Below, piece after piece: positions 32,343 to 57,904 of a stretch of 64,000 nucleotides of DNA. The number at the start of each line of letters is the position of its first letter. Within the stretch, counting starts at the first letter, position 1. This DNA comes from Okibacterium sp. HSC-33S16. Its GTDB lineage: Bacteria; Actinomycetota; Actinomycetes; Actinomycetales; Microbacteriaceae. The position numbers and the translations under genes were made by a program. The DNA is taken from assembly GCF_024171565.1 (NCBI RefSeq), contig NZ_JALJZZ010000004.1:62001-126000 (forward strand), in the 5' to 3' direction. The notes beneath the pieces are model-generated. The model saw only the letters and a program-made list of their open reading frames with translations, was not told where the DNA came from and did not search any database.

Positions 32343-33311
32343 ATGTCGCAGTATCTGTTCGTCTGCTCGGGTGGTGGACACCTCAAGCAGCTCCATACTT
32401 TGGCTCGCCGCATCGGCATTCCGCCGGGAAACCAGTTTTGGTTCACCTTCGACAACGGGTTGAGCCGCACGCTCACCGAGGGAACCGACCGGGTGTTCGC
32501 GAACTTCGCGGCACCGCGCGACGGCCTCAACATCATGAAGAACACAGCCCTGGCCGCCAAGGTGATGGCGCACAAGAAGTTCGCGGCCGTGATCAGCACG
32601 GGTTCGTCGCCTGCGGTATCGGCCTTCCCCGTCGCGCTGGCCCACGGCATTCCCTGCCACTACATCGAGAGCGCCGCGCGAGCGGAAGGTCCGTCATTGA
32701 CCGGCAAGATTGTCGCACGGATGCCGCGAGTCAAGACGTATTCGCAATACCCGGTTTGGGCGACAGAGAGCAGTTGGGCGTACCGGGGCAGCATCTTCGA
32801 CGAATTTGCGCCGGGGCCTGAACGCGAGGAACGGCCCATTCGCAAGGTTGTGGTCTCCCTCGGCACGCAGGAGTCGTACGGGTTCGACCGGCTGTTTCGC
32901 CGACTTGTTCCGCTGCTCGACGGGTGTGAGGTGCTCTGGCAGGTCGGCGCGGCCGATGTGTCGGAATACGGCATCGACGGTCGGGCCAGCGTGCTGCATT
33001 CGGAACTCGCCGACGCGGTCGCCGAGGCCGATGTCGTGGTCGCACACGCCGGAACCGGGGCGGCGCTCACCGCCATCGAGGCAGGCAAGATTCCGGTGCT
33101 CGTGCCCCGGCTCGCGCGCTACGGCGAGCACATCGATGACCACCAGGAGCAGATCGCCGCCGAGCTGTCACGGCGCGGACTGGCCGTGAACTGCCCGCCC
33201 GAGGAGCTCGACACCGAGACGCTCATCGCGGCATCGGTCCGCTCGGCGGAACGGGTTGATCCGCCCAACTTTGCGCTCGACGGACTGGTGCCGTCGCTGG
33301 CGGCCGTGTAG
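32343..33311 (+). CDS. Fused Alg14-Alg13-type glycosyltransferase
   Basis: A 322-residue protein joining two units that are often separate. Residues 1-150 look like Alg14 (FVCSGGGHLKQLHTL, STGSSPAVSAFPVALAHGI). Residues 160-322 look like Alg13/EpsF-type GT28 C-domains (VVVSLGTQESYGFDRL, VVVAHAGTGAALTAIEAGKIPVLVPR). Such pairs transfer the second sugar onto the lipid-linked primer at the inner membrane face, which fits its place right after the priming transferase. GGGAG precedes the ATG. A CGGACC/GGTCCG hairpin follows at 33330-33344. Confidence 0.85.
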   Translation: MSQYLFVCSGGGHLKQLHTLARRIGIPPGNQFWFTFDNGLSRTLTEGTDRVFANFAAPRDGLNIMKNTALAAKVMAHKKFAAVISTGSSPAVSAFPVALAHGIPCHYIESAARAEGPSLTGKIVARMPRVKTYSQYPVWATESSWAYRGSIFDEFAPGPEREERPIRKVVVSLGTQESYGFDRLFRRLVPLLDGCEVLWQVGAADVSEYGIDGRASVLHSELADAVAEADVVVAHAGTGAALTAIEAGKIPVLVPRLARYGEHIDDHQEQIAAELSRRGLAVNCPPEELDTETLIAASVRSAERVDPPNFALDGLVPSLAAV

Positions 33312-33486
33312 TTGCGCCAAGCCTGCCGTCGGACCCCTGGTCCGCGGTGAGGGGCCGGCGACCCGGGCCGCCCCGATCGGTTCGGGTCGCCGTTCGAGCC
33401 GCAGTTGCGGTGCTGCGCCCTCAGCCGCACCGCGCCCTCGTTTTCCATGTCTGCTCGCGTGCCCGTGTTCGTGCCTCCGCTCGTGC

Positions 33487-33540
33487 GAAAGCGCCAGTAG
33501 AAAGGGGTGCGCGCCGCCGTCACCCGCAACAACTGGCACT
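33487..33540 (+). repeat. 55-bp imperfect palindrome family, copy R1
   Basis: 54 bp. The right part (ACCCGCAACAACTGGCACT) matches the family core; the left arm (GCGCCAGT) is degenerate. It is in the same orientation as the other six copies and 86 bp from the start of R2. Confidence 0.65.
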
Positions 33541-33572
33541 CGTGCGGATGGCGCTTAGTGCGCTGCCCGGCA

Positions 33573-33627
33573 GAAGTACCAGTACGCCGGGGTTGCCGCG
33601 CCCACAACTCCCAACAACTGGCGCTTC
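33573..33627 (+). repeat. 55-bp imperfect palindrome family, copy R2
   Basis: 55 bp from GAAGTACCAGT to AACAACTGGCGCTTC. The arms pair with one or two mismatches. The centre has diverged. It is the second member of the pair upstream of the DUF559 gene. Confidence 0.7.
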
Positions 33628-33720
33628 CTCGGCTAGGGCAGCAACGACCGGAGGCAACCGGCACCCGGGTTGCTGTGGATAACCCGCGCGGCGAGTACTC
33701 ATCTGCGACAGCATCGATCC

Positions 33721-34680
33721 ATGACCGAACGGCGGCCGCTTCCGCGGGCAATCCAGCAGGGGCCGATCAGCGTGGCGCGCGCCCTCGAACTTGGAGTCAG
33801 CCCGGGGCGGCTGAACGCATCGGACCTGCAGGCGCCGTTTCGTGGCGTGCGAATGCCTGCATCGATGGTGCCCGAGCCGCTGCAACGTGCACGAGCACTC
33901 GCCACCATCCTGTCCAATGGCCAGTTCTTTAGCCACCAGACCGCTGCGCTGATCTGGGGAATGCCGCTGCCGTGGTCGCTGCAGAACGACGGCATTCTGC
34001 ACGTTTCCGCATTCAGGCCCCAGCATCCGCCGCGTCGCATCGGTGTCGTCGGACATGTCATTGCACCGGGCACCGTCATCACACAGGAGTGGTTGGGACT
34101 GCCCGTCACCGCGCCTGCATCGACCTGGACCGAACTCGCGACGGTCCTCACCCTCTACGAATTGGTTGCTGTCGGTGATTACCTGCTGCGGGGCGTCGAG
34201 ACGTCGCCTCCCAACGCCCAGCGCCCGGTGTACACGCCGCTCGCTACGGGCACCGGCCTGAAAGCCGCGGTGGACCGAACGCCACGAGCTGGAACCGCGA
34301 AACTGCGGAAGGCCCTTGAGCGGGTACGCGAGGGGGTGGAGTCCCCACGAGAGACGGTCCTTCGACTCACCCTCATCGAGTGGGGTCTGCCCGAGCCGGA
34401 GATCAACAAGGAGATCTACTCCGACGCGGGAGAGTTCCTCGGCCGAGTCGACCTCTGCTATCCCGGATTCAAGGTGATCGTCGAGTACGACGGAGAGCAA
34501 CACCGCGAGAACCGGTACCAGTTCGACCGTGACATCGACCGCATCGCCAAACTTGAGGAGAACGGGTGGCGAGTCATTCGCGTTCGACACGCGTTACTCC
34601 AACGCAACCCCGGCGAAGTTGTGCGTCGGGTGCGAGTGGCGCTCAGCCAGCGCGGGTGGGTGCCGGTGGCCGCGAACTGA
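33721..34680 (+). CDS. DUF559-domain nuclease-like protein (AbiEi-like N-terminus)
   Basis: A 319-residue protein. The C-terminal DUF559 domain belongs to the Vsr/PD-(D/E)XK nuclease-like group: E211 in SPRETVLRL, D244 in GRVDL, then VIVEYDGEQHR (E255, D257, H261) and the late NGWRVIRVRHA. All candidate catalytic residues are present. The N-terminal 200 residues resemble AbiEi-type winged-helix proteins common in actinobacteria. I know of no demonstrated function for this arrangement. It sits alone between two converging polysaccharide units and is bracketed by two pairs of the 55-bp palindrome. The ATG start is assumed; no clear ribosome binding site was found. Confidence 0.8.
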   Translation: MTERRPLPRAIQQGPISVARALELGVSPGRLNASDLQAPFRGVRMPASMVPEPLQRARALATILSNGQFFSHQTAALIWGMPLPWSLQNDGILHVSAFRPQHPPRRIGVVGHVIAPGTVITQEWLGLPVTAPASTWTELATVLTLYELVAVGDYLLRGVETSPPNAQRPVYTPLATGTGLKAAVDRTPRAGTAKLRKALERVREGVESPRETVLRLTLIEWGLPEPEINKEIYSDAGEFLGRVDLCYPGFKVIVEYDGEQHRENRYQFDRDIDRIAKLEENGWRVIRVRHALLQRNPGEVVRRVRVALSQRGWVPVAAN

Positions 34681-34707
34681 GTGCACGCACCTACCGGGCG
34701 GCGCCGG

Positions 34708-34761
34708 GAGTACCAGTTGCGATGGGTTGGGAGAGCTCGCACCGGCAACAACTGGTACTTC
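34708..34761 (+). repeat. 55-bp imperfect palindrome family, copy R3
   Basis: 54 bp. Outer arms AGTACCAGTTG (34709-34719) and CAACTGGTACT (34749-34759) pair perfectly over 11 bp. It begins 28 bp after the DUF559 stop. Confidence 0.85.
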
Positions 34762-34792
34762 GGTCGAGGGGTGCGGCATCGGGGCGTCACAG

Positions 34793-34847
34793 GAGTACCA
34801 GTTGCGACGGGTCATGCGGTGCGCGCACCGGCAGAAAGTGGTACTTC
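34793..34847 (+). repeat. 55-bp imperfect palindrome family, copy R4
   Basis: 55 bp, GAGTACCAGTTGCGACGGG to AAAGTGGTACTTC. The arms pair with one mismatch. The centre holds a perfect CGGTGCGCGCACCG palindrome. It is 85 bp from the start of R3. Confidence 0.8.
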
Positions 34848-34920
34848 CGGCCCGGGCATGTGGTGGGCGCGGCCCGGGCGCGGTGCGGGAGCGCGGGAAG
34901 CGGGGACCACCCGTGCCCAA

Positions 34921-36963
34921 CTACCGGGTCGCTGCCGCCCCCGCGACGACCGGCTCGAGCGGCTGCCCGTCGATGTCGACGCTCGCCGGCACGTGCGGCC
35001 CTGCCGGGGTGATCTCGGCACTGCCCGCCTGCTCAAGGTGAAGGTCGCCGCCCTCCTCATCGACATAGACCACGTCGCCCGTGCGGTTTCCGTCCGAGCC
35101 GATGGCATCCGGTTCAGAACAGGACTTCGCATTCCACTTCTCGACGATCGAATTCGTCATCGGGCTCGCGCAGTCGGCCAGGTAGGCGACGATGTTGCGG
35201 TCGAAGACGAGCCCGGGCAGCGGGTCGATCCGCACCGATCCGCCCGAGAACGAGTTGTTGCGCACCACAAGGTTCGTCGTCTTGATATAGCGCAGGTCGG
35301 CCGCCGACCCGCCCTGGCAGTTCGCGCTCTTCACGATGCAGCCCTGCACGAAGTTCGACTCGATGAGAATGTCGGCCATCCCCGTGCCCTTGCCCGACGA
35401 CAGGATGATGCCCGCGTTGTAGCAATTGCTCAGTTTGTTGGCCCGCAAGGTGATGGTCTCACTGTCGAAGATTTGCACGCAGTCCGCGTGCAGGCCGTTG
35501 TTCTTGTTCTGGTCGTAGTCGCGCACTTCGTTGTTTTCAATCAGAACGTCGGATGCTCCGCCGACCTGAATTCCATCGACGCTCGATCCGCCCTCAAACA
35601 GGCTGTCGCTGACGGTGACGTTCTGCGACCGAACAAACAACCCGGTTCCTGACACGTGAATGTTCTCGAGTCGCGTGTCGACGGCGGGCCTGTTCACATA
35701 CATCACCCCGGTGACCGTGATGCCCTGCCAGGTCACAGAGGGGACGGCGATTTTGAGTCGGTCGAAGGTGGGGGTTGCACCCTTCGCCGGGCCGACGACC
35801 ACCGCGGACGCCAGGCCTTTGAGGTTTCTGCCGCCGGTGAGTTCCATGCTGCCGTAGTTGCCGTCGGCCAGCGTGATCGCGCTGCCCTCGCCAGCCTTGC
35901 CGAGCGCGGTCTCAAGCGAGCACGGTGACCCGGTCGAGCAGCTCGAGCCCGAACCTTGCGGTCCGGCGACGAGAGCGTCCGGCGCCGTGAGTTTCCCCTT
36001 CGCGCTGAGCCGCGATCCCGTGGCGCCGGCCGGGTCGAGCTCAGTCTCCGCGGCGTCCTTGGGTGCGGCTTTGCCATCACCGTCGCCCGGTGAGTCGGAG
36101 AGCTCGTCGGAATTACTGAGTACATCCCACGCCACCGCCGCGAGCTTCTGCTGCCCGGCCACCGAGGGGTGGAAGTAATCGATCGTCGAGACGTCGGCGC
36201 CGGTGAACTCGACGTTGAAGGCGGCCTTCTCGTCCCAGATGCAGTGCGGGTGGGCCGCGCACGCGTCGGCGAGCACCCCGTTGAAGGTGTCGATGAGTGC
36301 CGAGATCGATGCACGCCGGTCAACATCGGCCTGCTCGCTGCTCGTGGCGTTGTACAGGATCGAGCGGCACTGGGCGATCTTCTTCCAGGTAGCAACGGCG
36401 CTCGGGTCGTCCTTCTTCGCGTCGATGAGCCGCACGAGGTTCGGCACCGACGACACGTAGACCCGCGCATCGGGCAGCCCGGTGGCCAGGGCGGTGAATG
36501 CCGTGTTCACGTTTTCGGTGAACGTTGCCTCTGGCGTCATCTCGTCGTAGGACGGCGCGCACACGTCGTTCGCCCCGATGAGCACGGTGACGAGGTCGGG
36601 CTGCAGTTCGACCGCGCGGGCGGCCTGGTCGGGCAGGCTCTCGACACTGGCGCCGTCACTCGCGATCACCTCGACGGTGGGAGCCGAGCCGCTGGTTGAG
36701 GCCACCCGCGAGGCGAGCGACTGCACTTCGGGGTCGGTGCCCGTCGACCACGACGCCTCAGGGCAACTGCCGCTGCGGTCACACGCGTTGACCGCGAGGC
36801 TCATCGAGTCACCGAGTGACGCGATGGCCGAGATGGTGAACGGCGCCGGCTCGGTCGACGGCACGGCGGTGGGCTTCGGTGCCGGTGCCGAACATCCGGC
36901 GAGCACGAGGGCGGTGGCGACGGTGGCGATCAGCATCCGTATCGACACTGTGTGTGCTCGCAT
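34921..36963 (-). CDS. Lipoprotein: SGNH/GDSL hydrolase fused to right-handed beta-helix
   Basis: A 680-residue predicted lipoprotein (lipobox LAGC, C24). Residues 45-275 form an SGNH hydrolase: GDSMS (51-55, S53 catalytic), GANDVC (130-135), and the D-x-x-H pair in DYFHP (D262, H265). Residues about 350-650 form a parallel beta-helix like those of pectate lyases, with Asn-rich turns (IENNEVRD, VVRNNSFSG). Together they suggest surface deacylation plus binding or cleavage of the polymer. The ATG at 36963 overlaps the flippase stop (TGATG), so a longer frame was rejected. It is the last gene of the minus-strand unit. Confidence 0.82.
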   Translation of the reverse strand: MRAHTVSIRMLIATVATALVLAGCSAPAPKPTAVPSTEPAPFTISAIASLGDSMSLAVNACDRSGSCPEASWSTGTDPEVQSLASRVASTSGSAPTVEVIASDGASVESLPDQAARAVELQPDLVTVLIGANDVCAPSYDEMTPEATFTENVNTAFTALATGLPDARVYVSSVPNLVRLIDAKKDDPSAVATWKKIAQCRSILYNATSSEQADVDRRASISALIDTFNGVLADACAAHPHCIWDEKAAFNVEFTGADVSTIDYFHPSVAGQQKLAAVAWDVLSNSDELSDSPGDGDGKAAPKDAAETELDPAGATGSRLSAKGKLTAPDALVAGPQGSGSSCSTGSPCSLETALGKAGEGSAITLADGNYGSMELTGGRNLKGLASAVVVGPAKGATPTFDRLKIAVPSVTWQGITVTGVMYVNRPAVDTRLENIHVSGTGLFVRSQNVTVSDSLFEGGSSVDGIQVGGASDVLIENNEVRDYDQNKNNGLHADCVQIFDSETITLRANKLSNCYNAGIILSSGKGTGMADILIESNFVQGCIVKSANCQGGSAADLRYIKTTNLVVRNNSFSGGSVRIDPLPGLVFDRNIVAYLADCASPMTNSIVEKWNAKSCSEPDAIGSDGNRTGDVVYVDEEGGDLHLEQAGSAEITPAGPHVPASVDIDGQPLEPVVAGAAATR

Positions 36964-54282: not shown

Positions 54283-54309
54283 TTCCGTACCTCGGATCCT
54301 CGTCGCGCC

Positions 54310-54364
54310 GAAGTGCCAGTTGTTACGGGTAGTGGGCGACCACACCCGCGACACCTGGCACTTC
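54310..54364 (+). repeat. 55-bp imperfect palindrome family, copy R5 (solitary)
   Basis: 55 bp with an almost continuous hairpin. GAAGTGCCAGTTGT pairs with ACACCTGGCACTTC with one mismatch. An inner CGGGT/ACCCG stem and a GTGG-GCGA-CCAC tip (GNRA-type loop) follow. It lies between a membrane protein gene and the iron-uptake operon. Confidence 0.85.
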
Positions 54365-54431
54365 TGCGTCCGTGGATCGGGCGGAAGGGCGCGCCCGGGA
54401 TGCCTCGACGTCGAATCAAGCTGGACAGCAG

Positions 54432-56586: not shown

Positions 56587-57621
56587 ATGACCGCAACAGT
56601 TGCGCCGACGAGCGCCGGGATTTCTCCCGGCGCTCGTCGCCGCACACCCCGGCTCGCGGTCGGTCTCATCGTCACCGCCGGCGCACTCGTCGTTCTGGTC
56701 GGGTTGAGCCTCGCGGTCGGCACCAAATACGTGCCGCTTCCCGATGTCTGGAACGCCCTGTTCGCGCCGGGCGACACCTACGCCGACGCGGTGGTCGCCA
56801 GCCGCATCCCTCGAACGATCCTCGGGCTTCTTGTCGGCGCAGCGCTCGCCGTCGCCGGTGGCGTCATGCAGGGTCTTACCCGCAACCCACTCGCCGACCC
56901 GGGACTCTTCGGCGTCAACACCGGCGCGGCCGCAGCCATTGTCACGGCGACAGCGCTCGGCGTCGGCGCTGGAACGAGCGTCTGGATCGCGCTGCCCGGG
57001 GCGTTTATCGCCGTGGTGATCGTCTACCTCATCGGGTCCGGCCGCGGCCGAAGCACCCCAGTGCGACTCGTGCTCGCCGGCGTCGTCGTCTCGTCCGTAC
57101 TCGCCGCCTACATCCAGGCCGTCTCGCTCACCCTGCCGCGGGTGTTCGACGCCTACCGGTTCTGGGCGGTCGGCTCGCTCGCCGGTCGCAACCCGCAACT
57201 CATCGTCGACATCCTCCCGTTTGTGATCCTCGGGCTCGTGCTCGCCCTCTCGCTGTGCGGCTCGCTCAACGCGCTCGCACTCGGCGACGACACCGCCCGG
57301 GCGCTCGGCGCGCACGTCGGTCGCACCCGCATCCTCGGCGCGATCGCCACGACGCTGCTCTGCGCCGCAGCCACCGCCGCGGTCGGTCCGATCTCCTTCG
57401 TCGGCCTGGCCGTTCCACACATCGTGCGCAGCATCACCGGGGCCGACCACCGCTGGCTCCTGCCGTACTGCGTCGTCGCCGGCCCCGCACTCCTGATCGC
57501 CGCCGACATCATCGGCCGCGTCATCGTCTCCCCGGCCGAACTCATGGTCGGCGTCATCACCGCCTTCGTGGGCGGCCCGATCCTCCTGCTCGCGGTCCGC
57601 CGGATGCGAGCCGCCGCATGA
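56587..57621 (+). CDS. FecCD-type iron-siderophore permease, subunit 1
   Basis: A 344-residue permease with about nine hydrophobic segments. RIPRTILGLLVGAALAVAGGVMQGLTRNPLADP is broken here only by position (about residues 76-108) and is the family signature; GPISFVGLAVPHIVR is the ATPase-contact loop. It ends in RRMRAAA, and its last 31 bases belong to a 36-bp direct repeat whose second copy lies at the start of the next permease gene. Confidence 0.93.
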   Translation: MTATVAPTSAGISPGARRRTPRLAVGLIVTAGALVVLVGLSLAVGTKYVPLPDVWNALFAPGDTYADAVVASRIPRTILGLLVGAALAVAGGVMQGLTRNPLADPGLFGVNTGAAAAIVTATALGVGAGTSVWIALPGAFIAVVIVYLIGSGRGRSTPVRLVLAGVVVSSVLAAYIQAVSLTLPRVFDAYRFWAVGSLAGRNPQLIVDILPFVILGLVLALSLCGSLNALALGDDTARALGAHVGRTRILGAIATTLLCAAATAAVGPISFVGLAVPHIVRSITGADHRWLLPYCVVAGPALLIAADIIGRVIVSPAELMVGVITAFVGGPILLLAVRRMRAAA

Positions 57622-57626
57622 GCGCC
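57591..57626 (+). repeat. 36-bp direct repeat, left copy
   Basis: It covers the last 31 bases of permease gene 1, ATGA included. It is identical to 57869-57904. Confidence 0.95.
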
Positions 57627-57673
57627 GCGCCCGCCCCCCTCGCACTCGCCGCCTTGGCTATCAATGCTGGCAG

Positions 57674-57727
57674 TAGTACCAGTAGTAGCGGGTTATGCGC
57701 GTTCGCACTCACGAGAACTGGTACTTC
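57674..57727 (+). repeat. 55-bp imperfect palindrome family, copy R6
   Basis: 54 bp. AGTACCAGT (57675-57683) pairs perfectly with ACTGGTACT (57717-57725). The centre has TGCG-CGTT-CGCA. Confidence 0.85.
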
Positions 57728-57777
57728 GGACTCGGGCTTGGCCGCCCCGAGTCGGCCGCGCTGTGGCGCTCTCGGCA

Positions 57778-57832
57778 GAAGCACCACTGATTGTGGGTCA
57801 TGGGCGTCCACACCCGCGACAACTGGTACTTC
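57778..57832 (+). repeat. 55-bp imperfect palindrome family, copy R7
   Basis: 55 bp, GAAGCACCACTGATTGTGG to GACAACTGGTACTTC. The left arm has mismatches. The tip TGG-GCGT-CCA and the CACACCCGCGACAACTGG right half match R5. Confidence 0.8.
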
Positions 57833-57868
57833 CGAGTCCGCGTTGGCGCACGCCGGCGACGGGGCAAC

Positions 57869-57904
57869 CGCGGTCCGCCGGATGCGAGCCGCCGCATGAG
57901 CGCC
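57869..57904 (+). repeat. 36-bp direct repeat, right copy
   Basis: Identical to 57591-57626 and offset by 278 bp. It supplies the ATG at 57896 of permease gene 2. Confidence 0.95.

Follow-up and report, generated by a model that had tools for sequence, protein, structure and literature searches.

A putative two-part system of a DUF559 nuclease and its own palindrome in Okibacterium and related Actinobacteria

The 64,000-nucleotide stretch of Okibacterium sp. HSC-33S16 analysed here (contig NZ_JALJZZ010000004.1, positions 62,001 to 126,000; hereafter the window) contains a DUF559 nuclease gene that stands between two pairs of a palindromic repeat. Many relatives of this gene are likewise flanked by palindromes, which match each other across the gene and, in close relatives, co-vary with the N-terminal region of the encoded protein. 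Discrete units of the same palindromes are dispersed in the genomes, and one pair is an insertion polymorphism. The gene and its repeats probably form a two-part co-evolving system, in which a single-gene nuclease would be tied to its own private palindrome of about 55-64 bp by a mechanism of binding, cutting and repair.

Palindromes on both sides of DUF559 genes

The first-pass annotation of this DNA had placed four repeats and one gene at positions 33487-34847. This layout was borne out when the coordinates were rechecked, since two palindrome pairs bracket the DUF559 gene (Table 1), and the upstream gap given as about 90 bp is 91 bp between R2 and the ATG at 33721. Two distances had to be corrected: the internal offsets of the pairs, given as 86 and 85 bp, are both 85 bp by the coordinates of the covariance model (CM), and the downstream gap, from the stop at 34680 to R3, is 23 bp instead of 28 bp. 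The CM was trained on the seven copies of the window, so that R1-R7 match it by construction. Independently of any CM, the 11-mer AGTACCAGTTG occurs 10 times in the window with at most one mismatch, against 0.25 expected, and none of 100 shuffles reached this count. The closest named relative of the protein belongs to a Mycetocola zhadangensis locus (67% protein identity). This ortholog is also bracketed by two palindrome pairs, which carry a different word, GTGACACTT in place of GTACCAGTT.

Relatives were taken as the best 80 of 254 loci by protein similarity, most of them about 12.9 kb long (L and G numbers denote loci and genomes, respectively). The window CM gives 19 matches (E up to 1) in six of these loci, and none of the matches is farther than about 300 bp upstream or downstream from the DUF559 gene. 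A sequence-blind palindrome scan covered 85 DUF559 loci, namely the 80 relatives and five genes of the Okibacterium genome itself; its arms are at most 32 bp, so palindromes longer than 65 bp cannot appear. It finds 44 palindromes in the 200 bp upstream of the genes and 48 in the 200 bp downstream, the remaining 200-bp bins holding 0-5 each, except for 12 at 200-400 bp upstream. These counts keep the mycobacterial partial-match loci L104, L107-L110 and L112-L116, in which part of the "upstream" flank is intragenic, and the paralogues L002-L004, which were read on the wrong strand, so that up and down are swapped for them in measures that are symmetric. Strong palindromes are 56-65 bp long in 75 of 86 cases. 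Both sides carry a palindrome at 47 of the 85 loci, and at 43 of these 47 the similarity between the two sides exceeds the 95th percentile of cross-locus similarity (median score 33 for upstream/downstream pairs, 8 for cross-locus pairs). The palindromes differ from one locus to another, and those on the two sides of a gene change together.

As a control, 314 other open reading frames (ORFs) of at least 250 amino acids in the same 80 loci were analysed. Matched palindromes on both sides are present at 39 of the 80 DUF559 genes and at 2 of the 314 control ORFs; with respect to a palindrome on at least one side, the figures are 74/80 and 78/314. These counts, the concerted change of the two sides and the N-terminal tracking in close pairs described below strongly support the proposal of the first-pass annotation that this is a nuclease-repeat pairing unrelated to the RAYT (REP-associated tyrosine transposase, REP being repetitive extragenic palindromic) systems.

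Several counts weigh against the proposed system. The matched pair is missing in 41 of the 80 relatives. In a phylum-wide sample of 296 genomes, 90 of them with a DUF559 relative, 29 loci from other genomes were returned, one per genome, and 8 of these 29 are matched on both sides; the figure is 8 of 19 for loci from the class or closer, and none of the 10 relatives outside the class has matched palindromes. In the genus of the strain, the blind scan sees at least one flanking palindrome at 26 of 30 DUF559 matches, but a matched two-sided pair, by the same rule, at only 6 of 30 (24/30 lack it). DUF559 relatives without repeats nearby had been named as evidence that would tell against the pairing; relatives outside the class lack matched palindromes, and in the genus most members have a palindrome at least on one side. 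From the absence outside the class and the partial counts of the genus it follows that the pairing belongs to one DUF559 clade and is not universal there. The window gene and its M. zhadangensis ortholog themselves fail the blind rule, their upstream copies being too imperfect, although the CM detects them. All six genomes of the genus have 5-7 DUF559 protein matches each, numbers in which one gene of G001 and one of G005 are each split into two matches.

Other arrangements were also seen beside DUF559 genes. In the Cryobacterium loci L072 and L102, palindrome centres lie 36-37 bp apart 3' of the gene, resembling a small tandem array of alternating arms. In the mycobacterial loci L109, L110 and L113-L115, self-complementary words of about 14-16 bp occur twice, about 30 bp apart, in a layout unlike that of the 60-bp palindromes.

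The N-terminal region and the identity of the palindrome

The window protein matches Pfam DUF559 above the gathering score (E 1.2e-8) and MTES_1575 below its cut-off (E 1.2e-7). These were the only Pfam families found at E up to 1, and the Y1/HUH (TnpA-REP) transposase family gave no match. An AlphaFold2 model (mean predicted local distance difference test score, pLDDT, 94.2; predicted template modelling score, pTM, 0.90) predicts a fusion of an AbiEi-like half with an EDxHD/Vsr-type nuclease. Residues 3-203 of the model align with the AbiEi antitoxin 6y8q (Z 10.0, root-mean-square deviation (rmsd) 5.4, 177 residues aligned) and more weakly with Rv2827c (1zel; Z 7.0). Residues 206-313 align with the catalytic domain of the EDxHD homing endonuclease I-Bth0305I (3r3p; Z 12.5, rmsd 2.5, 96 aligned), NGO0050 (3hrl; Z 11.7) and Vsr (1cw0; Z 10.7). 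Two points count against this assignment: the AbiEi match has an rmsd of 5.4, and Foldseek finds nothing in the PDB at E 0.001 or better, the I-Bth0305I domain coming at E 0.02 with a TM-score of 0.78 on the target. The invariant acidic and histidine residues of the nuclease part among 37 aligned homologues are E211, D244, E255, H261 and D271; three of the four candidates proposed earlier (E211, D244 and E255) are thus retained, and the fourth, D257, is not invariant. The pattern E211/D244/H261/D271 appears to fit EDxHD in our own mapping, which leaves the spacing relative to I-Bth0305I aside. According to PMC3943268, I-Bth0305I dimerises on a target site almost 60 bp long, which matches the size of the palindromes.

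Which part of the protein follows the palindrome was studied in 76 loci with a palindrome, using 238 close protein pairs. Palindrome similarity in these pairs correlates with the identity of residues 1-115 (r 0.85) and less with that of the nuclease domain (r 0.60). The joint betas are 0.77 for residues 1-115 (jackknife standard error 0.10), 0.19 for residues 116-203 (0.13) and -0.07 for the nuclease (0.18). Among pairs whose nuclease domains are at least 72% identical, the median palindrome score is 48 for the 17 pairs with an N-terminal identity of 80% or more, and 17 for the 56 pairs in which this identity is below 70%. For instance, L041 and L056 have nuclease domains 96% identical, residues 1-115 about 55% identical, and unrelated palindromes. 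A later check concerned the G012 allele at the Cryobacterium syntenic locus, which is flanked by palindromes like those of L056/L062 (family F2). Its residues 1-115, compared in two segments, are nearest to these F2 alleles (0.52-0.57 in one segment and 0.63 in the other; the six other alleles give 0.38-0.48 and 0.42-0.54), and the distance of its nuclease domain from the eight alleles compared is much the same for each of them (0.62-0.70). These comparisons show that among close relatives it is the AbiEi-like N-terminal region, rather than the nuclease domain, with which the identity of the palindrome changes. The earlier suggestion that the protein recognises the repeat is supported by them indirectly, together with the matching and the concerted change of the two sides.

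Some results lessen this contrast. Over all 2415 pairs, most of which are too distant to have palindromes in common, the joint betas are 0.39, 0.12 and 0.16 in the same order. In a Mantel test of 43 loci, the preference for the N-terminus nearly vanishes (r 0.51 for residues 1-50, 0.58 for residues 51-203 and 0.54 for the nuclease; for no segment was the observed r reached in 1000 permutations). The pairs L067/L069 and L086/L091 have similar palindromes (score 32-36) despite N-termini only 56-61% identical. Common descent contributes in part to the protein-palindrome correlations, and the informative part is the contrast between two halves of one protein.

The best rival explanation, which may be part of the truth, is that the palindromes are only operators, i.e. 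sites of an AbiEi-like autorepressor whose nuclease acts elsewhere, the scattered copies being regulon or titration sites. AbiEi and Rv2827c are reported to autoregulate by binding inverted repeats in their own promoters (PMC7319586), the N-terminal half of the window protein is AbiEi-like (Z 10), a palindrome lies about 100 bp upstream of many DUF559 genes, and N-terminal tracking fits any binding role. As the whole account it is nevertheless unlikely, because a matched copy also stands downstream of the gene in 39 of the 80 relatives and because of the placement and form of the dispersed copies, which are treated in the next section.

Divergence of the candidate recognition region can be followed at the Cryobacterium syntenic locus. 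G014 and G017 share an upstream neighbour with 94% identity over 2059 bp (82-98% per 100-bp window), and this similarity reaches as far as the stop codon of the neighbour. Past this stop codon the N-terminal half diverges and so do the palindromes, apart from their outermost 8 bp; identity climbs to 75-80% in the nuclease part, drops again beside the downstream palindrome and then recovers slowly, to 73-84% and later to about 90%. Diversification of a recognition region is typical of conflict systems. A self/non-self nuclease might therefore be considered, that is, a defence or anti-plasmid enzyme for which the chromosomal palindromes sequester the protein, mark self or are escape products. 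The conserved nuclease residues fit such an enzyme, as do weak matches of the nuclease region to the PADLOC candidate PDC-S37 (E 0.0048) and to the anti-phage ProA (E 0.057, far below the cut-off). A conflict-system survey also mentions the MTES_1575 domain, as a Vsr-type restriction endonuclease (REase) domain, in a large HEPN fusion protein (PMC3710099). We regard this explanation as improbable: the protein has no strong defence-family match, in a search that covered the protein itself. We know of no case in which palindromes serve as self-marks of such nucleases.

In G020 and G022 the gene is missing at the syntenic site, and a different hairpin is found there instead. This hairpin, of about 100 bp (L267 3551-3710 in G022; L268 3491-3726 in G020, with the sequence CGCATAACTCCTGCAATT ... 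AATTGCAGGAGTTATGCG), is perhaps another palindrome family.

Dispersed copies and the nature of the palindrome

The window holds three further copies, R5-R7, which had been missed by the first-pass annotation. R6 and R7 lie in a 242-bp insertion bounded by a perfect 36-bp direct repeat. The insertion is missing in four of five relatives of the genus (G002, G003, G004 and G005), where the junction is uninterrupted; in the fifth relative, G001, no junction is clearly orthologous. A search in the genus gave no donor for the insertion outside the palindromes. Both FecCD permease frames at the site stay open.

This insertion polymorphism, with its 36-bp duplication at 57.6 kb, and the existence of multi-copy families are what would be expected if the palindromes were non-autonomous elements of an unrelated transposase, similar to REPs or MITEs (miniature inverted-repeat transposable elements), and stood beside DUF559 genes by chance. 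Such an origin is very improbable, since the palindromes would have to follow the N-terminal region of a neighbouring protein by chance at many loci, and on both sides of the gene. The first-pass annotation had further suggested that the protein may cut or spread the hairpins. The dispersed copies and the insertion polymorphism agree with spreading, but a target duplication is missing in 26 of the 27 units examined, which comprise 20 stretches of two Cryobacterium genomes and seven units of the Okibacterium genome. The pair at 57.6 kb is the only one that has it, and this counts against spreading. A fixed stagger or a general target-site duplication is consequently not proposed.

In the Okibacterium genome, a CM search in which 150 of 1353 first-look candidates were scored gives 14 distinct sites, of which two stand alone and the others form six pairs with spacings of 83-105 bp. 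Twelve of them are on the 298-kb contig C4 and two on C7. An exact-pattern cross-check gives 9 forward matches (control 1), six of them known repeats, all on C4, and three elsewhere without inner symmetry. The 12 C4 copies fall within 136 kb (C4 95-231 kb), on the same contig as the gene; this clustering is recorded here and is not used for any conclusion.

With respect to other genomes of the genus, alignment shows a counterpart palindrome of the same CCAGTT type at the R5 position in M. zhadangensis (G004). Five other G004 copies that were read, one of them adjoining the G004 DUF559 gene, are all of the GTGACACTT type; one further weak match was left out of this reading. In G001 and G003 the CM matches a third palindrome family, GAGTTGCCC, which also flanks DUF559 genes there (L193, L194). 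The G001 gene of this family (G001:C26:24005-24930) appears as two overlapping fragments in different frames, and several dispersed GAGTTGCCC copies persist in that genome.

Two palindrome families were searched by their arms in 22 Cryobacterium genomes: F1, the palindrome of L053/L044, with at most three mismatches and with gene-flanking copies included in the counts, and F2. Forward/reverse counts of F1 arms are 29/27 and 23/25 in the two F1 genomes, 13/10, 9/5 and 7/12 in G013, G010 and G015 (mostly a variant), 4/4 in G019, 2/1 in G017 and 0/1 in G007. They are absent from 14 of the 22 genomes, and the reversed-pattern control gives 0 in all 22. F2 arms number 51/47 in G012, 18/16, 17/16 and 14/14 in G010, G013 and G015, and 3/3 and 2/2 in G017 and G019, the source genomes of the pattern; they are absent from 16 of the 22 (control 0). 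Repeats equally common in genomes without this DUF559 clade had been named beforehand as contrary evidence. The outcome for the two conditions named was mixed. Both families are absent from most of these genomes, which are of one genus and not independent, but F2 weighs against a simple dependence: it is commoner in G010, G013 and G015 (14-18), where the syntenic allele carries another palindrome, than in G017 and G019 (2-3). The families are clade-restricted, and the allele now present does not by itself predict how many copies a genome has. Remnants of alleles since replaced, or paralogues that escaped notice, might account for this.

The 21 F1 copies that were read are sharp-edged units of 61 bp (one of 60), with a variable centre of about 10 bp. 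Gene context was obtained for 20 copies, two of them outside these 21: 13 are between convergent genes, 7 between co-directional genes and none between divergent genes. As a background, 18 of 75 gene pairs in the same pieces are convergent, with the junctions that hold copies included, and for the 80 loci the figure is 167 of 771. The gene caller was crude, and some Cryobacterium neighbours were called 257-1026 bp away; as it misread loci of the Okibacterium genome (the 33-kb unit as co-directional and the 57-kb pair as divergent), only the Cryobacterium counts are used. By this crude caller, the absence of divergent settings argues against the operator-only explanation, and so does the form of the copies, 61-bp units with sharp ends, of which one pair is an insertion. 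With the GTAG or CGTC tags of REPs in mind (PMC3733652), the sequence beyond the ends was compared in 20 Cryobacterium copies, all of one family, and contains no conserved tetranucleotide. Flanks of dispersed copies (L227-L246) are C-rich on the left and G-rich on the right, a strand asymmetry that probably reflects the position of many copies between the ends of converging genes.

The label "hairpin" given to the repeat earlier was not upheld, and "dyad-symmetric site" is preferred, because arm changes are not compensated beyond expectation. In the 20 dispersed Cryobacterium copies, two-sided arm changes occupy 6 cells, against 5.3 in shuffles, and 243 of 500 shuffles are as high. A base-paired hairpin under selection is thus not favoured, compensation not being above chance, and selection on half-site sequence fits better; these 20 copies may be too young to decide between the two. 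Arm mismatches in 115 palindromes are nearly strand-symmetric (G-T 107, A-C 86, other 228), and no Rfam family matches at the gathering score in L001, L036, L038, L095 and L233; given both results, a role as hairpin RNA is not favoured. Judged by the arms studied in this related family, the palindrome has the look of a pair of half-sites for a protein more than of a hairpin kept by selection.

The same data bear on whether the palindromes are terminators, or generic REP-like structures that gather in the intergenic gaps beside these genes. They are strongly palindromic, and their frequent position between convergent genes in Cryobacterium (13/20) would suit terminators. However, no terminator-like site (stem and T-tract) is found in 33300-35000, and a T-rich tail follows only 2 of 114 flanking palindromes and none of 21 dispersed copies. 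In addition, the sequences match across the gene and not between loci, they follow the N-terminus in close pairs, and matched pairs flank hardly any of the control ORFs (2/314). This explanation is already disfavoured, and we consider it highly unlikely.

A proposed mechanism and its relation to known systems

The two-part system favoured here could work as follows. A dimer of the protein would bind the palindrome, each N-terminal region reading one half-site of about 25 bp, and binding would place the EDxHD nuclease domains on or beside it. The DNA would be cut or nicked there and then repaired by recombination or, rarely, misrepaired, and in this way the palindrome-gene-palindrome cassette would be kept at its locus. 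The same process would allow alleles of different specificity to replace each other and would occasionally deposit palindromes elsewhere, mostly between convergent genes, harmlessly. A second use of the same binding might be autoregulation via the upstream palindrome. The number of copies weighs against the simplest form of this mechanism. An active double-strand nuclease with 25-50 targets would be harmful, so the palindromes cannot be plain duplex targets at all times; as tens of sites are tolerated, the protein would have to nick the DNA, act on it in a special form or be tightly controlled.

Resident Y1 transposase genes of the RAYT type are flanked by palindromes whose family is dispersed in intergenic DNA. 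The units described here resemble them in that a resident single gene is flanked by palindromes and the same family is scattered intergenically, as single copies or in pairs (compare PMC8266576 and PMC3733652). They differ in the enzyme, which is predicted to have an EDxHD/Vsr-type fold with an AbiEi-like N-terminus instead of being an HUH/Y1 transposase. The palindromes differ as well: REPs are given as 20-40 bp (PMC3733652), while those beside DUF559 genes are mostly 56-65 bp, in a scan blind above 65 bp, and have their own sequence for each nuclease type. With I-Bth0305I the protein shares the predicted fold of the catalytic domain and, in our mapping, E-D-x-H-D-like residues. Unlike I-Bth0305I, its gene is free-standing between two genes, its N-terminal half is AbiEi-like, and several matched sites flank the gene, with more dispersed in the genome.

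The N-terminal half has the predicted fold of AbiEi and Rv2827c, known members of which are described as binding inverted repeats (PMC7319586). The differences are that the window gene, the only one considered in this respect, has no adjoining AbiEii/DUF1814 toxin partner gene, that a nuclease is fused at the C-terminus, and that sites flank the gene on either side and occur at other places too. The nuclease fold and the Pfam DUF559 match link the protein to the Vsr/DUF559/MTES_1575 group, MTES_1575 being presented in PMC3710099 as a Vsr-type REase. What sets the window protein apart from this group is the fusion of the domain to an AbiEi-like half and its link to cognate palindromes.

In the open-access literature covered, mostly titles and abstracts, no description links extragenic palindromes to DUF559, AbiEi or Vsr-type nucleases; most subscription journals, which may contain one, and all preprints fall outside this coverage. 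By analogy, the system may be read as working like REP-RAYT with chemistry of the homing-endonuclease type, while being a member of neither. It has a REP-RAYT layout without a RAYT enzyme and resembles EDxHD homing endonucleases in its predicted fold. The chances are about even that it represents an undescribed class in Actinobacteria, in which an AbiEi-type recognition region joined to an EDxHD nuclease reads a private dyad of about 60 bp, maintains the cassette of the gene and its two flanking palindromes, switches specificity when the N-terminal half and both palindromes are replaced, and seeds non-autonomous palindromes.

If this is true, enzyme-tied extragenic palindromes would have a second, independent solution, with a restriction-type nuclease instead of an HUH transposase. 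DUF559 proteins would gain a testable function, the binding site being written beside the gene. The pairs of N-terminal regions and half-sites of about 25 bp are a natural data set for decoding this DNA-recognition fold, and would amount to a library, supplied by nature, in which each DNA-recognition module comes with its long target site. The system would also account for intergenic palindrome families in Microbacteriaceae, whose spread could be tracked allele by allele.

Table 1. Positions of the features in the window (CM, covariance model; R1-R7 are in the training set)
Feature	Positions	Strand	Basis
R1, palindromic repeat, outer copy of upstream pair	33485..33544	+	CM match, 65.1 bits; model includes R1
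R2, palindromic repeat, inner copy of upstream pair	33570..33629	+	CM match, 58.3 bits; model includes R2
DUF559 / REase_MTES_1575-like nuclease gene, 319 amino acids	33721..34680	+	Pfam and AlphaFold2 model
Predicted AbiEi-like region, residues 1-203	33721..34329	+	Structural alignment; residues 1-115 are the candidate recognition region
Predicted EDxHD/Vsr-type nuclease domain, residues 206-313	34336..34659	+	Structural alignment and invariant residues
R3, palindromic repeat, inner copy of downstream pair	34704..34763	+	CM match, 70.5 bits; model includes R3
R4, palindromic repeat, outer copy of downstream pair	34789..34849	+	CM match, 64.5 bits; model includes R4
R5, single dispersed copy between two co-directional genes	54307..54366	+	CM match, 77 bits; model includes R5
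Left copy of 36-bp perfect direct repeat at edge of R6-R7 insertion	57591..57626	.	Sequence
242-bp insertion with R6-R7, between two FecCD permease genes	57627..57868	.	Genus comparison; FecCD by Pfam
R6, first copy of dispersed pair	57670..57729	+	CM match, 67.9 bits; model includes R6
R7, second copy of dispersed pair	57775..57834	+	CM match, 71.8 bits; model includes R7
Right copy of 36-bp perfect direct repeat at edge of R6-R7 insertion	57869..57904	.	Sequence

Helical phasing of the paired copies was considered and is not used, being too weak: the mean deviation from multiples of 10.5 bp is 1.6 bp, against 2.6 expected, in 24 pair spacings, many of them not independent. Relatives on mobile DNA are limited to six plasmid records and one phage record, each with less than 60% identity, and there is no sign of frequent carriage by plasmids or phages. 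In the window, the nuclease gene is the single gene in a 1.6-kb gap between convergent genes, which by Pfam are a glycosyltransferase-28-like gene and a GDSL-lipase/beta-helix gene.

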